Part shown: positions 376-4,572 of the stretch, in pieces
How the letters are laid out: the number at the start of each line of letters is the position of its first letter
Position numbering within the stretch: the stretch's first letter is position 1
NCBI RefSeq assembly: GCF_006175995.1
Contig: NZ_VDMB01000006.1
Coordinates: 35,521 to 99,520 of the forward strand
DNA length: 64,000 nucleotides
Direction: 5' to 3'
From: Desulfobotulus mexicanus
Lineage (GTDB): Bacteria > Desulfobacterota > Desulfobacteria > Desulfobacterales > ASO4-4
The notes under the pieces: generated by a model
What the model was told of the DNA's origin: nothing
The model's input: only the letters and a program-made list of their open reading frames with translations
Database searches by the model: none
Translations under genes and position numbers: made by a program

Positions 376-1185
376 TCATAAAACATCCTCAACGGCTTTC
401 CGCATGCAATCAACGGGAGCTTCCCTGCCCGTCCATAACTCAAACTGCAAAGCCCCCTGACGGATGAACATTTCAAGGCCATCCACCACACGGCATCCAA
501 GGGACTCCGCAGCCCTGATCAGCTTTGTCTTTCTGGGATTGTAAACGATATCCATAACCACCATCCCCCCATGGAGTACGGCAGCCTGAACAGGCATGGT
601 ATCCACATCCGGATGCATGCCAAGGGAGGTTGTATTCACCAGAATATCCATACCTATCCCCGTAAAATTCGAAAGAAGACAGAAATCAGCACCCAGATCA
701 CAGGCCAGCGCCTCCCCCTTTTCCCGGCTGCGGTTCACAATGAGGGGAAAAGCCCCAGCCTCACGAATACCGAAGGCCACAGCCCTGCCAGCCCCTCCTG
801 CACCCAGAATGGCAACCCTTTTCCCATGAAGGGGACCTGCCTCCAGAAGGGCATCCCTGGCTCCGCACCAGTCCGTATTCAGCCCGATAATTCTGCCATC
901 ATCCTTCAGACAAAGAGTATTCACAGCTCCCATTTTCTCTGCCATGGGATCCAGCTCATCCACCAGTGACAAGAGAGCTTCCTTATGGGGCAGGGTCACA
1001 CTCATGCCCCGGATACCAAACGTTCTCATGGCAACGGGAACTCCTGCGGGATCCTTTACATCAAAGGCAAGGTAAACGGCGTTAAGTCCCAGAAAACCAA
1101 AGGCGGCATTGTGCATCACAGGGCTTAGACTATGGGCCACAGGATGACCCATCACTCCGAAAAGAGCAGTCTCGGCATCCATCAT
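376..1185 (-). CDS. aroE: Shikimate dehydrogenase (NADP+)
   Basis: Reduces 3-dehydroshikimate to shikimate with NADPH in the cytoplasm, the fourth step of the shikimate pathway. The 269-residue protein has the family length. The substrate-binding SLSP motif is near residue 20, the catalytic lysine is in VTLPHK, the second substrate site is in NTDWCGA, and a Rossmann GAGGAGRA loop is near residue 128. It is the last gene of the ADTH synthase-DHQS II-pheA-aroE operon and begins a few bases after the pheA stop. The start is ATG 1185 or the next codon at 1182; the second sits better behind AAGGGGGA. No clear terminator follows; a dispersed repeat lies downstream. Confidence 0.95.
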   Translation of the reverse strand: MMDAETALFGVMGHPVAHSLSPVMHNAAFGFLGLNAVYLAFDVKDPAGVPVAMRTFGIRGMSVTLPHKEALLSLVDELDPMAEKMGAVNTLCLKDDGRIIGLNTDWCGARDALLEAGPLHGKRVAILGAGGAGRAVAFGIREAGAFPLIVNRSREKGEALACDLGADFCLLSNFTGIGMDILVNTTSLGMHPDVDTMPVQAAVLHGGMVVMDIVYNPRKTKLIRAAESLGCRVVDGLEMFIRQGALQFELWTGREAPVDCMRKAVEDVL

Positions 1186-1191
1186 TCCCCC

Positions 1192-2301
1192 TTAAAAACT
1201 GCACCGGGCATAGGAGCCCACGGTTTTCAGGAAAAGGCAGTTCGGCCGCATTCTGTCAATGGCCTCCCGGATGAGTTCATCCTCCCGATGGCCTTCAAGG
1301 TCAGCAATGAAAAAATAATTCCAGTTTTCCTGACGGGTGGGTCTTGACTCCAGCTTCACAAGGTTGATGTTCAGATCCGCCAGGGGCTTCAGACCACTGA
1401 ACAAGGCACCGGGTACGTGGGCCGTAACAAACATGATGGTTGTCTTGTCCGATCCCGTGGGCCGAGTCTCGTCCCTCCCGATGACCAGAAAACGGGTGGT
1501 ATTGCGACCACTGTCCTCTATGTGGGATGCCAGCACCTGAAGGTTGTATATGGCCGCAGCCTGGGAACCCGCCACCGCAGCGGCACCCGGCTCCATCGCT
1601 GCCTTTCTTGCCGCCGCCGCAGTACTGGCCATCTCCACAAGACGGGCATGGGGCAGGTTCTGGGCCAGCCAGCGCCTGCTCTGGGCCAGAGCCTGGGGGT
1701 GGGAATACACAACGGAAACTAAAGAAAGATCCGTTTCACGGGATAAAAGATCATGGGAAATGGCAAGGCAGGTTTCCGCACAGATACTCAAGGGAGAGAG
1801 GAACAAAAGATCCAGCGTGTGGTTCACAGCCCCTTCCAGTGAGTTTTCCACGGGCACCACACCATAGTCACAACTTCCCTTTTCCACTTCTTCAAACACA
1901 TCGGCAATGGTGGTTCTGGGAACAAACTGGCCTGCATAATCGAACTGCTGCAACGCAGCAATATGGGTATTGGTGGCCTCCGGCCCAAGATAGGCGATGG
2001 TCCGGGAACGCTGCACCTCACGGGTAGCAGCCATAACAATGCCATATAAATGATGGATCAGGGTATCGGAAACAGGCCGTCCCTCACTGCGGGCCACAAG
2101 GCGGTCAAAAATACTCTTTTCCCGGGACCGGTCCAGCACCTGAAGCCCGGCCTTTTCCTTAACAGCTCCTATCTCCCGCCCAAGTTCCAGCCTTTCATTG
2201 AGAAGATCAAGGATGGTATCATCTATGCTGTCTATGCGGATACGCAGGCGATCCAGCGCCTGTCGCACCCCTTCCATATCTTCAGTCATGTTTTCACCCA
2301 T
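1192..2301 (-). CDS. pheA: Bifunctional chorismate mutase / prephenate dehydratase (P-protein)
   Basis: Converts chorismate to prephenate and then to phenylpyruvate for phenylalanine synthesis. Three domains are visible: an AroQ-type helical chorismate mutase at about residues 10-95, a prephenate dehydratase at about 100-280 with the TRF motif in NTTRFLVIG, and a C-terminal ACT domain with the ESRP motif that binds Phe for feedback inhibition. The length of 369 aa is typical. It sits 2 bases after the DHQS II stop, so it is probably translationally coupled. The start is ATG 2301 with GTAGGG directly before it; ATG 2289 is an alternative. Its presence makes the operon a Phe branch as well as a common-pathway operon. 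Confidence 0.95.
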   Translation of the reverse strand: MGENMTEDMEGVRQALDRLRIRIDSIDDTILDLLNERLELGREIGAVKEKAGLQVLDRSREKSIFDRLVARSEGRPVSDTLIHHLYGIVMAATREVQRSRTIAYLGPEATNTHIAALQQFDYAGQFVPRTTIADVFEEVEKGSCDYGVVPVENSLEGAVNHTLDLLFLSPLSICAETCLAISHDLLSRETDLSLVSVVYSHPQALAQSRRWLAQNLPHARLVEMASTAAAARKAAMEPGAAAVAGSQAAAIYNLQVLASHIEDSGRNTTRFLVIGRDETRPTGSDKTTIMFVTAHVPGALFSGLKPLADLNINLVKLESRPTRQENWNYFFIADLEGHREDELIREAIDRMRPNCLFLKTVGSYARCSF

Positions 2302-2303
2302 CC

Positions 2304-3296
2304 CTACTGTTCCGTAATGGTTTCTTCCACCGCATGACCAAAATGCCTGCCACCCTCTTCCAGACAGACCAGCACACGGTCTCCGGGATTGATGGACACA
2401 ACGGACAACGGCCTGCCTCCCGGTGCCGTCAGGCGGATAGTTTCCGCATTCTGTACAATGGTATGGATACCTCTTCCAGCAACCTCAGCACGGATCAGAA
2501 GGAGGGGTCTTTTTTCTATCTTCACCCTACCCACCACAGCGGGACTGGTGTTTCCGTTACTGTCCACAAGCATCACTGAATCACCGGCCTTAAGCTCGGC
2601 AAGGTAGCGGGTACGCCCCCCGTCCACACGGGTATAGGCATGCACGGCTCCGGCATTCACCCGGAAAGGCCGGGGCGCCACATAGGGATTGGATTCTGTC
2701 TCTGCATGCACAAGGAAAAGAGCCGAAGAACTGTCGCCCACCAGCATACCCTGGCCGGGCAGCATGGATGTACAGGTATCCACACAGACCCGGTCTCCCA
2801 TGCCAAGGGACCTGACCTCCGTCACCACAGCCTCCTCCAGAACTTCACTGCCATGAACCTCCTGCAAGCCGGAAAGGGCCGCCTGAAGGGCCAAAGGATC
2901 CTGAATATCCAGCATCACCCGCCGGACGCCCACCTCAAGGATACCAAAGGCCGTGCGTGCCTCCTCAAAACTCCGCACCACGGGCATAACATCCGCTTTT
3001 TTGGCAATAAGATTTTCAAGGGGAATAATGGTCCAGTCCGTACACTCCAGCACCACAAGACGACTGAGAGACAAAGCAGCCACAGCCTCTTCCTGACTTC
3101 CGTCAGAAATTTTAAAAATTTCAGCCGTTTCTCCGGGAATATAATCTCCATCCGATGCAAGCACAGGAATCCTTGCCAGCTCAGCCACTTCCTGCCCCCT
3201 GCCATCTTCCACCCAGAGCCCGTGGGCTCCGCCCTCAAGGGCAGTGAGCACCAGCTCCTTATTCCAAGGGGCAATTTTCACCCATATTTCCCGCAT
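2304..3296 (-). CDS. 3-dehydroquinate synthase II (archaeal type)
   Basis: Catalyses NAD-dependent oxidative deamination and cyclisation of 2-amino-3,7-dideoxy-D-threo-hept-6-ulosonate (ADTH) to 3-dehydroquinate. It replaces the DAHP-based AroB enzyme in many archaea and some bacteria. The 330-residue protein starts MREIWVKIAPWNK and shows the family's characteristic segments, including the TDWTIIPLENLIA and SSALFLVHAET regions, and it bears no resemblance to AroB. GGAGAGG lies upstream of ATG 3296. Its upstream neighbour encodes the ADTH synthase that supplies its substrate, which supports the assignment strongly. A 169-base spacer without a gene separates the two. Confidence 0.92.
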   Translation of the reverse strand: MREIWVKIAPWNKELVLTALEGGAHGLWVEDGRGQEVAELARIPVLASDGDYIPGETAEIFKISDGSQEEAVAALSLSRLVVLECTDWTIIPLENLIAKKADVMPVVRSFEEARTAFGILEVGVRRVMLDIQDPLALQAALSGLQEVHGSEVLEEAVVTEVRSLGMGDRVCVDTCTSMLPGQGMLVGDSSSALFLVHAETESNPYVAPRPFRVNAGAVHAYTRVDGGRTRYLAELKAGDSVMLVDSNGNTSPAVVGRVKIEKRPLLLIRAEVAGRGIHTIVQNAETIRLTAPGGRPLSVVSINPGDRVLVCLEEGGRHFGHAVEETITEQ

Positions 3297-3465: not shown

Positions 3466-4269
3466 TCAGACAACCTCTTCCTGCAGAATCATCATGGCCT
3501 CTTCAACGGAGGCACCTTTATTAATGATAGCAGAAAAAGCTCTGACCAGACCGCGGGGATTCTTGTGCTGGAAGACATTGCGCCCCATGGAAACACCGGC
3601 ACCTCCAGCATCCGTTGCCCCCTTCACCATCTCAAGGATATCACGGTCCGAGTCCATTTTAGGGCCTCCGGCAATGACAACGGGCCTGAAACAGCCCTCC
3701 ACCACCTCACGGAAGGACTCTGCGGAACCAGTGTAAGAAACCTTCACAATATCCGCACCCATTTCTGCTCCCACCCTGGCTGCATGCTTGATAGCTTCCT
3801 TGTCGTACTCATCCCGAATTTTTTCCCCTCTGGGGTACATCATGGCAAGGAGCGGCATTCCCCAGTTCCGCGCATCATAGCTGATACGTCCAAAGTCATT
3901 GAGCATCTGCTTTTCATCACCATTGCCGAGATTCACATGGATGCTCACCGCATCAGCTCCCAGACGAATGGCTTCCTCCACGGAGCAGACAATGGTTTTT
4001 GCATTGGGCTTGGGAGAAAGACTGGTGGATGCTGAAAGATGAATGATGAGACCGATATCCGGACCACTGCCCCGAAGGCCATCCTCCACCAGCCCTTTGT
4101 GTTCCACAATGGCATTGGCACCACCTTCAGCCACCTTCTGGATAGTGGCGGTCAGATTACGGATACCGTCAATGGGTCCCACGGATACACCGTGATCCAG
4201 GGGAACAATAATTGTTTTTTTCGTTTCCCGGTTAATGATACGTTCCATACGAATCTGTTTGCCGATCAT
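3466..4269 (-). CDS. 2-amino-3,7-dideoxy-D-threo-hept-6-ulosonate (ADTH) synthase
   Basis: A class I aldolase of the DhnA/FbaB-like family that makes ADTH from 6-deoxy-5-ketofructose 1-phosphate and aspartate semialdehyde, the first step of the alternative shikimate route. The protein has 267 residues. It shows the family's [13 protein letters not shown] start, a lysine-bearing DIVKVSYTG strand (probable Schiff-base lysine) and a phosphate-binding [13 protein letters not shown] end. The frame stays open to 4326, but ATG 4269 is chosen because AGGAGG lies 7 bases before it and the upstream part overlaps a terminator hairpin. It is the first structural gene of the operon, directly behind the attenuator. 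Pairing with DHQS II favours ADTH synthase over a plain FBP aldolase. Confidence 0.9.
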
Positions 4270-4295
4270 GCTGAATGCCTCCTGTATATTAAAAT

Positions 4296-4333
4296 ATGCA
4301 AAAAGGGCCGCAGAGTTTCTCTCCACGGCCCTT
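4296..4333 (-). terminator. Attenuator terminator of the aromatic operon
   Basis: On the minus strand AAGGGCCG (4333-4326) pairs with CGGCCCTT (4310-4303), and GAG/CTC extends the stem around the loop AGAAA. TTTTTGCATATTTT follows. It lies between the leader peptide and ADTH synthase, only about 30 bases before the start codon, so it can only act as an attenuator. CCACGG at 4363-4358 can pair with CCGTGG at 4328-4323 and would prevent this hairpin. A third hairpin, GTGGGTCG (4384-4377) with CGACTCCCCAC (4370-4360), would tie up that CCACGG. This is the usual antiterminator logic, judged by eye. Confidence 0.75.
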
Positions 4334-4404
4334 CTATAAATTATACCTATATTGCCACCGTGGGGAGTCGTTTTGCCGACCCACCCTCGGTACGATTGCT
4401 GTTT

Positions 4405-4500
4405 TTATTTTCTCTGTTCCAGCGCACGTGCAGGCAGGTCGATACTAAAATAGTACCACCAATAATAGCAATAAAAGCTGCCTGCAAAAGTCTGGTTCAC
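4405..4500 (-). CDS. Aromatic amino acid leader peptide (attenuation)
   Basis: A 31-codon frame starting GTG at 4500 encodes a peptide with the run FYCYYWWYYF at residues 9-18 and ends at TAA 4407-4405. Seven of ten consecutive codons are Tyr or Trp and two are Phe, a composition essentially seen only in attenuator leader peptides. AAAGG lies 8 bases before GTG, and an in-frame TGA just upstream excludes any earlier start. The 8-bp arms GCAGGCAG (4485-4478) and CTGCCTGC (4437-4430) flank the aromatic run in the RNA. The natural reading is that ribosome stalling at scarce Tyr/Trp/Phe-tRNA controls readthrough into the shikimate and Phe operon. Confidence 0.85.
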   Translation of the reverse strand: MNQTFAGSFYCYYWWYYFSIDLPARALEQRK

Positions 4501-4543
4501 TATAAAAACCTTTCATTGATTATTCTTTTTTTAAACTTTCTCT

Positions 4544-4572
4544 CATCTACCCGCAAAATGACCTTCGGTCAA
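4544..4572 (-). promoter_or_regulatory. Probable sigma-70 promoter of the aromatic operon
   Basis: TTGACC (4572-4567) and TAGATG (4549-4544) are separated by 17 bases on the minus strand. Transcription would start near 4537, about 25 bases before the leader peptide Shine-Dalgarno. The -35 box is near consensus and the -10 box is weak. The position, just before the leader, is what makes it credible. Confidence 0.45.

Follow-up and report, generated by a model that had tools for sequence, protein, structure and literature searches.

In the his attenuator of E. coli and Salmonella, as presented in the account of PMC10989985, the stems AB, CD and EF are set against the alternative stems BC and DE. 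For the ADTH synthase operon of Desulfovibrio vulgaris (aroA'>aroB'>aroQ-pheA>aroF>tyrA>[trp operon]), a putative attenuator ahead of the genes was listed in 2005 (PMC1173090, Table 7), and a passage of PMC4833913 mentions, through a reference, chains of RNA helices in attenuation. The locus described here belongs to the window, the 64,000-nucleotide stretch of Desulfobotulus mexicanus DNA that was analysed, and lies upstream of an operon for ADTH synthase, 3-dehydroquinate synthase II (DHQS II), PheA and AroE. It is very probably a ribosome-mediated transcription attenuator in which six RNA segments act in relay. As expected of such attenuators, it combines clustered end-product codons in a predicted leader with an intrinsic terminator and, by computation, an antiterminator exclusive of it.

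The genes of the operon are assigned by protein family models (Table 1). The ADTH synthase encoded by the first gene exhibits 97% identity to that of Desulfobotulus alkaliphilus ASO4-4, the closest named genome. Chorismate mutase models match the N-terminal part of the PheA-type protein, with scores below their cut-offs. No DAHP synthase of the PF00793 family was found in the genome, since the only PF00793 protein found there is a KDO8P synthase. To note, a frame resembling a transposase helix-turn-helix by eye (L130:8180-8608) is located downstream of aroE, just beyond the window edge.

Table 1. Operon, leader and RNA segments in the window (S1-S6, the six segments in order of transcription)
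Feature	Position	Strand	Basis
ADTH synthase (2-amino-3,7-dideoxy-D-threo-hept-6-ulosonate synthase), first gene of the operon	3466..4269	-	TIGR01949 366.9 bits, cut-off 299.45
3-dehydroquinate synthase II	2304..3296	-	NF002627 440.2 bits, cut-off 392
Chorismate mutase / prephenate dehydratase (PheA type)	1192..2301	-	NF008865 272.7 bits, cut-off 219
Shikimate dehydrogenase AroE	376..1185	-	TIGR00507 and NF001319 above cut-off
Putative promoter: -35 TTGACC (4572-4567), 17-nt spacer, weak -10 TAGATG (4549-4544)	4544..4572	-	sequence
Shine-Dalgarno-like GAAAGG of the leader, 8 nt before GTG	4509..4514	-	sequence
Leader peptide frame, GTG start, 31 codons, predicted product MNQTFAGSFYCYYWWYYFSIDLPARALEQRK	4405..4500	-	kept in relatives
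Regulatory codons FYCYYWWYYF	4447..4476	-	sequence
S1, arm 5' of the aromatic run, partner S2	4478..4485	-	fold; S1:S2 swap test
S2, CUGCC core, partner S1 or S3	4432..4442	-	covariation, folds
S3, arm; 4386-4376 with S2, 4392-4377 with S4	4377..4392	-	covariation, folds
S4; CCACGGU 4363-4357 with S5	4356..4370	-	covariation, folds
S5, terminator 5' arm, alternative partner S4	4321..4334	-	terminator scan, covariation
S6, terminator 3' arm and U-tract	4300..4315	-	terminator scan, covariation

An earlier note, made from the letters of the window, had pointed to the leader frame and its aromatic run, the Shine-Dalgarno sequence, the near-consensus -35 hexamer with its 17-base spacer, an 8-bp stem flanking the aromatic codons and two hairpins; all are present. 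The stem pairs 4485-4478 with 4437-4430, the first hairpin, noted near 4384-4360, spans 4392-4356, and the terminator hairpin (4335-4301) stands 31 nt ahead of the ATG of ADTH synthase at 4269. Across three Desulfobotulus genomes (the window and two congeners) the -35 hexamer is retained and the weak -10 has changed. An inverted repeat, TGACC-N3-GGTCA (4571-4559), overlaps the -35 hexamer and may be an operator; its arms are constant and its loop varies in the three genomes, and when the plus strand is read, the repeat is picked up as terminator-like too.

The 500-nt region upstream of the operon reaches 9 aromatics in 12 codons, a value met by none of 500 dinucleotide shuffles, 16 of which reach 6, and the RNA from 4510 to 4295 folds with a z of -6.1 relative to shuffles. 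In the genome as a whole, a pattern search for five Phe/Tyr codons gave 103 matches vs 203 for the reversed control and is uninformative.

The leader is conserved among orthologues of this ADTH synthase. Relatives of the enzyme were collected from 40 of 58 related genomes and from a class-wide search of 291 genomes, 130 of which have a match at E<=1e-90; in the class-wide set a leader was called where a start codon and a stretch of 12 codons with at least 6 aromatics precede a stop. An aromatic-run frame lies upstream in all 30 loci returned from the related genomes (L001-L030), in 18 of 19 class-wide orthologues (L111-L129) and in 55 of a further 60 chosen for fetching (L178-L237), that is, in 103 of the 109 orthologous upstream regions read in the class. 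Three of the six regions lacking it are near contig ends (L112, L189, L192), in L191 the frame is broken in a T run, and in L210 and L236 none was found. The leader frame of L044 is likewise interrupted in a long T run; in both loci the remaining element is intact, and the break may be a sequencing error or real. Among 80 named loci, three of which have less than 200 nt upstream, at least 6 aromatics are reached by 44 of 47 in L031-L079 and by 9 of 30 in L080-L110. In the latter group L082, L084, L086, L094, L097 and L106 are regarded as real leaders, and L088-L090 are taken to belong to a coding frame; among the named loci, those labelled Sedimentisphaerales or archaea display no leader.

Removal of L036, L088, L089, L090 and L106 from 128 rows leaves 123 distinct leaders, each selected for holding at least 6 aromatics in 12 codons; of the dropped rows, L106 (Humidesulfovibrio) resembles by inspection a real Phe-rich leader with a terminator, which makes its removal too strict, and L036 is doubtful. 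On average the 12 codons hold 3.2 Phe, 4.5 Tyr and 0.8 Trp; both Phe and Tyr occur in the run of every leader, and Trp in 78 of the 123. A chance aromatic frame next to an unrelated terminator could in principle pass the threshold, as 6 of 12 is reached by 4.9% of 615 dinucleotide shuffles and by 11% of the 123 reverse strands; nevertheless, 79% of the leaders, in this set chosen at 6 or more, hold at least 8 of 12, a level attained by no shuffle and no reverse strand, and the presence of the frame in nearly all orthologues contradicts chance, an explanation whose probability we regard as negligible. The earlier note had looked to orthologous operons of close relatives for loss of the leader or of the terminator; besides the conserved leader, a U-tailed hairpin follows every one of the 123 leaders, the terminator scan finding two in 84, one in 39 and none in 0. 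In these 84 leaders S3:S4 is itself U-tailed, and two terminators stand in series. A separate hairpin scan counts two hairpins in 96 of the 123 and one in 27, an undercount as L121, L179 and L234, which have two, were scored as one.

The segments of the leader RNA offer two exclusive sets of pairs. The alternative pairing of CCACGG (4363-4358) proposed in the earlier note is borne out, the hexamer being part of S4, which covaries with both of its partners; a further choice, S1:S2 vs S2:S3, had been missed. The latter resolves the difficulty, raised in the same note, of the ~60 nt separating the aromatic run from the first hairpin, because S2, located just 3' of the run, pairs with either S1 or S3. 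In the relatives the S2 CUGCC core follows the last aromatic codon at a median of 9 nt, as measured in the 105 of 123 where it was located. Thinning of the 96 two-hairpin sequences at 88% identity left the 74 that make up alignment A2. In it, the antitermination conformer (S2:S3 with S4:S5) has 89.9% of its cells paired, falling to 37-55% when the partners are slid, and the termination conformer (S3:S4 with S5:S6) has 93.2%, a pairing that sliding destroys. Shuffle and swap tests, the figures of which are inflated by kinship among the sequences, give 60 double changes vs 16.5 in shuffles for the antitermination conformer and 141 vs 36.7 for the termination conformer (0/500 in both cases), and own partners that are on average stronger than those swapped between species for S1:S2 (z -12.2, n=123), S2:S3 (z -14.9, n=123) and S4:S5 (z -9.5, n=96). 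Both conformers, S3:S4/S5:S6 and S2:S3/S4:S5, thus covary in 74 distinct sequences. In two distant loci, L078 and L074, the S2:S3 duplexes are long and differ widely in sequence.

A simpler arrangement would be a four-segment attenuator of the trp type, with S3:S4 as a bystander and a single antiterminator that matters. The window S3:S4 hairpin has no U-tract, as is also the case for the first hairpin in Desulfobotulus, at most 27 of the 123 relatives are scored as single-hairpin (at least three of which show two), and the Phe-leader paralogue described below has such a form, with a pairing parity that works there too. Two hairpins are nevertheless present in the window and in 95 other rows, and the S4:S5 helix (A2 columns 106-115/151-160) is 93.1% paired with double changes at 7 of its 10 pairs, which makes a bystander S3:S4 improbable.

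The check by RNA folding with alternative structures, suggested in the earlier note, places free RNA in the termination conformer and masked prefixes to the end of S3 or of S5 mostly in the alternative. For the complete window RNA with S1 masked, the terminator conformer is at -58.8 vs -43.8 kcal/mol for the read-through conformer. When everything 5' of S2 is masked in imitation of a ribosome, window RNA ending with S3 forms S2:S3, that with S4 out but not S5 has S3:S4 and not S2:S3 as its minimum, and that with S5 added forms S2:S3 and S4:S5. Among 96 leaders, when all that precedes S2 is masked, prefixes to the end of S3 form S2:S3 in all 96 cases and prefixes to the end of S5 form S2:S3 with S4:S5 in 89; at this S5 stage S3:S4 is nonetheless seen in 7 with S1 masked. 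At equilibrium, masking S1 in the complete RNA still leaves the terminator conformer preferred (73/96, vs 5/96 for read-through), and the model therefore needs kinetic trapping; switching by attenuators is in general kinetic. With a ribosome at the stop codon, S3:S4 and S5:S6 form in 90 of 96 complete RNAs, and S4:S5 is still seen in 32 of 96 at the S5 stage. In the window the S2 core ends 25 nt short of the stop codon, whereas the median distance is 10 nt where a core was found (105 of 123 leaders), so a terminating ribosome may not mask S2 here, and S1:S2 would have to do so.

From the parts, their conservation and the covariation of both sets of pairs, we infer ribosome stalling, kinetic trapping and read-through along the following lines. 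When charged tRNA-Tyr, tRNA-Phe and tRNA-Trp are plentiful, the ribosome would clear the run, and S2 would either be covered by it on arrival at the stop codon or return to S1; with S2 occupied, S3:S4 and then S5:S6 would form and transcription would end ahead of the operon. Under a shortage of one aromatic tRNA, the ribosome would stall within the run and cover S1, leaving S2 to join S3 once the latter emerges. S4 would then stay free to capture S5 before S6 emerges, no terminator would form, and the operon would be transcribed. Untranslated RNA would be expected to terminate as well. A ribosome held up at the final codons of the run would itself cover part of S2, and the response may therefore be graded. 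The conserved leader and the covarying conformers argue in this way for the proposal of the earlier note that a shortage of tRNA-Tyr, tRNA-Trp or tRNA-Phe lets transcription continue into the operon.

The same genome holds two first-step isoenzymes whose leaders differ in composition. A single terminator and a leader rich in Phe, MNMNAFHTFFFYFKNFFGGFTCAWGSCEGGMA, precede the second ADTH synthase (L131, G000:C18:3684-4457; 60% identity). Taken over the final 38 residues of each frame, 12 Phe-leader paralogue loci contain 79 Phe, 22 Tyr and 13 Trp, and own S2:S3 partners pair better than swapped ones (0/5000); no such leader frame was found in sixteen further paralogues (L242-L257) or in L139 and L140. 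Upstream of trpE (L259, G000:C4:175441), a leader frame with WWW, ending in ILWWWPASSGHHGTGL, is followed by a terminator-like hairpin recognised by eye. Judging from the codon composition of the three leaders, the genome seems to divide aromatic sensing among a Tyr/Phe/Trp, a Phe and a Trp leader.

How far the scaffold extends was assessed with R1, a covariance model of A2 that begins at the last aromatic codon and hence does not include the codon run. The window element scores 65.6 bits against a window background of 19.6; the Phe-paralogue leader (18.8 bits) and the trpE leader stretch (12.6, the locus best of 22.7 being off the leader) score low and are therefore not recognised as the same scaffold. 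A weak match in the same genome (28.8 bits; L332, G000:C31:353-501), with a YYRAGYFF stretch, precedes an AMP-binding gene that we take to be phenylacetate-CoA-ligase-like, and may be due to chance.

In a search of 297 genomes of the phylum, the 30 loci returned as best match per genome precede ADTH synthase (16, called by NCBIfam in 4 and by sequence or coordinates in 12), aroFGH-type DAHP synthase (4), B. subtilis-type DAHP synthase (8) and trpE (1), with one locus unreadable. One aroFGH case (L274) belongs to a genome of the same order in which ADTH synthase has no match. ADTH synthase (PF01791) and DAHP synthase (PF00793) belong to separate Pfam families. A further 39 matches, hand-picked, precede trpE (10), DAHP synthase (10), trpB-like PALP genes (5), ADTH synthase-type genes (2), a trpD-like gene, an acetolactate-synthase-like gene and a PAS protein gene (1 each), genes of no family (4), and, with Tyr/Phe-run leaders, periplasmic binding protein genes (L303, L323, L299) and aminotransferase genes (L326, L331). 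The last five are candidate genes for aromatic uptake and transamination.

A lenient scan for an aromatic run, which has no null of its own, is positive at 65 of the 67 R1 loci read (L271 and L290 left out) and negative at L304 and L325. At L304 (G538:C30) the match precedes the acetolactate-synthase-like gene and may represent a branched-chain leader that uses this scaffold. Trp makes up 37 of 41 aromatics in the runs before trpE and 18 of 20 before trpB-like genes; runs before other genes are mostly Tyr and Phe, with Trp at three DAHP synthases (L283, L291, L327).

These loci also bear on the possibility that the leader encodes a functional small peptide, acting for instance in trans like peTrpL, the hairpins being an ordinary terminator. 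A trans-acting leader peptide has reportedly been found in another system (PMC7298713), and a GLPG(V)R peptide end recurs within the class. Conversely, the S2 core, found in 45 of the 67 loci, lies in leader reading frames 0, 1 and 2 in 12, 11 and 22 cases, which indicates that the RNA and not the peptide is held; S2 belongs to R1, by which the loci were picked, so the presence of the core is partly selected, and its frame is not. As the alternative RNA conformers both covary in addition, a functional peptide is highly improbable.

A match to R1 at E<=0.01 occurs in 229 of the 297 genomes, a number unusable as a distribution, given that this level is also reached by 8 of 16 control genomes, drawn from loci where no leader was recognised; of the 16, 14 carry labels of other groups, one has no label and one is named Deltaproteobacteria. 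Weak R1 matches are thus not evidence. The best control match, at 53 bits, is in the Deltaproteobacteria-named genome, which has a second match on the opposite strand, and its coordinates are those of the run-less L325. Against this background, it is possible, and we take it seriously without quite favouring it, that the phylum has retained one homologous S2-S6 scaffold through replacement of the enzymes behind it and rewriting of the codon run, the regulator being older than the enzyme and the tandem relay having arisen by duplication of a terminator hairpin. The enzymes replaced would be ADTH synthase and the aroFGH-type and B. subtilis-type DAHP synthases, and the amino acids sensed Tyr/Phe/Trp or Trp.

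The RNA families in Rfam do not account for the element. No T-box, riboswitch or known leader family matches at threshold: the sole Rfam match in the whole window is a tRNA, and 20 related loci gave 0 matches. At E<=5, the region 4900-4200 brings up the trpB motif RF04312 (23.2 of the 59 bits of its gathering score), tpke11 (25.3 of 43) and two more sub-threshold models; the account in PMC11109978 describes the trpB motif from Firmicutes and Fusobacteria. The element is a candidate RNA family absent from Rfam 15.

The earlier note knew of no description of a Tyr-dominated run with Trp and Phe on the ADTH/DHQS II pathway. This appears to stand for the leader peptide and its segments; it does not for attenuation as such, given the D. 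vulgaris entry of 2005. The latter likewise predicts attenuation of an ADTH synthase operon in a related group, and differs in coming from a database of predicted attenuators; in the table cited and the text on attenuation no leader peptide, segments or conservation are reported for it. Searches of the open-licence PMC literature turned up no account of the leader, of its segments or of the way it recurs across the phylum, and in the searchable text of PMC2965389, on premature terminators, the words Desulfo and aromatic are absent. The six-segment logic is known from the his attenuator; the leader, its segments and the phylum-wide recurrence are apparently undescribed. They provide a logic by which the archaeal-type (ADTH) route into the bacterial shikimate pathway would be regulated. 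The wider scaffold is more interesting than the single leader, and two questions can be tested now: whether a regulator persists longer than the enzymes under its control, and what is gained from a second serial terminator.

Compared with the E. coli trp and phe attenuators, the locus shares aromatic codons and the opposition of terminator and antiterminator, and differs in its Tyr-dominated mixed run and its ADTH synthase/DHQS II gene set; R1 finds no match at E<=5 in the E. coli trp and phe leader loci. The resemblance to the his attenuator, as the source cited above presents it, extends to a leader peptide with regulatory codons, a chain of six segments and a last hairpin that is the terminator, with the same pairing parity: S1:S2, S3:S4 and S5:S6 vs S2:S3 and S4:S5 correspond to A:B, C:D and E:F vs B:C and D:E. 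Unlike the his system, the codons here are aromatic and the genes those of the shikimate pathway, the middle hairpin is U-tailed in 84 of 123 relatives, and several sensors and genes share one scaffold; with R1, the E. coli his leader itself scores 19.2 bits, at background level. The four-segment form of E. coli trp and phe is shared by the single-hairpin relatives and the Phe-leader ADTH synthase paralogue. Four- and six-segment attenuators occur here as a natural series, with one scaffold, different amino acids and first-step enzymes of different families.
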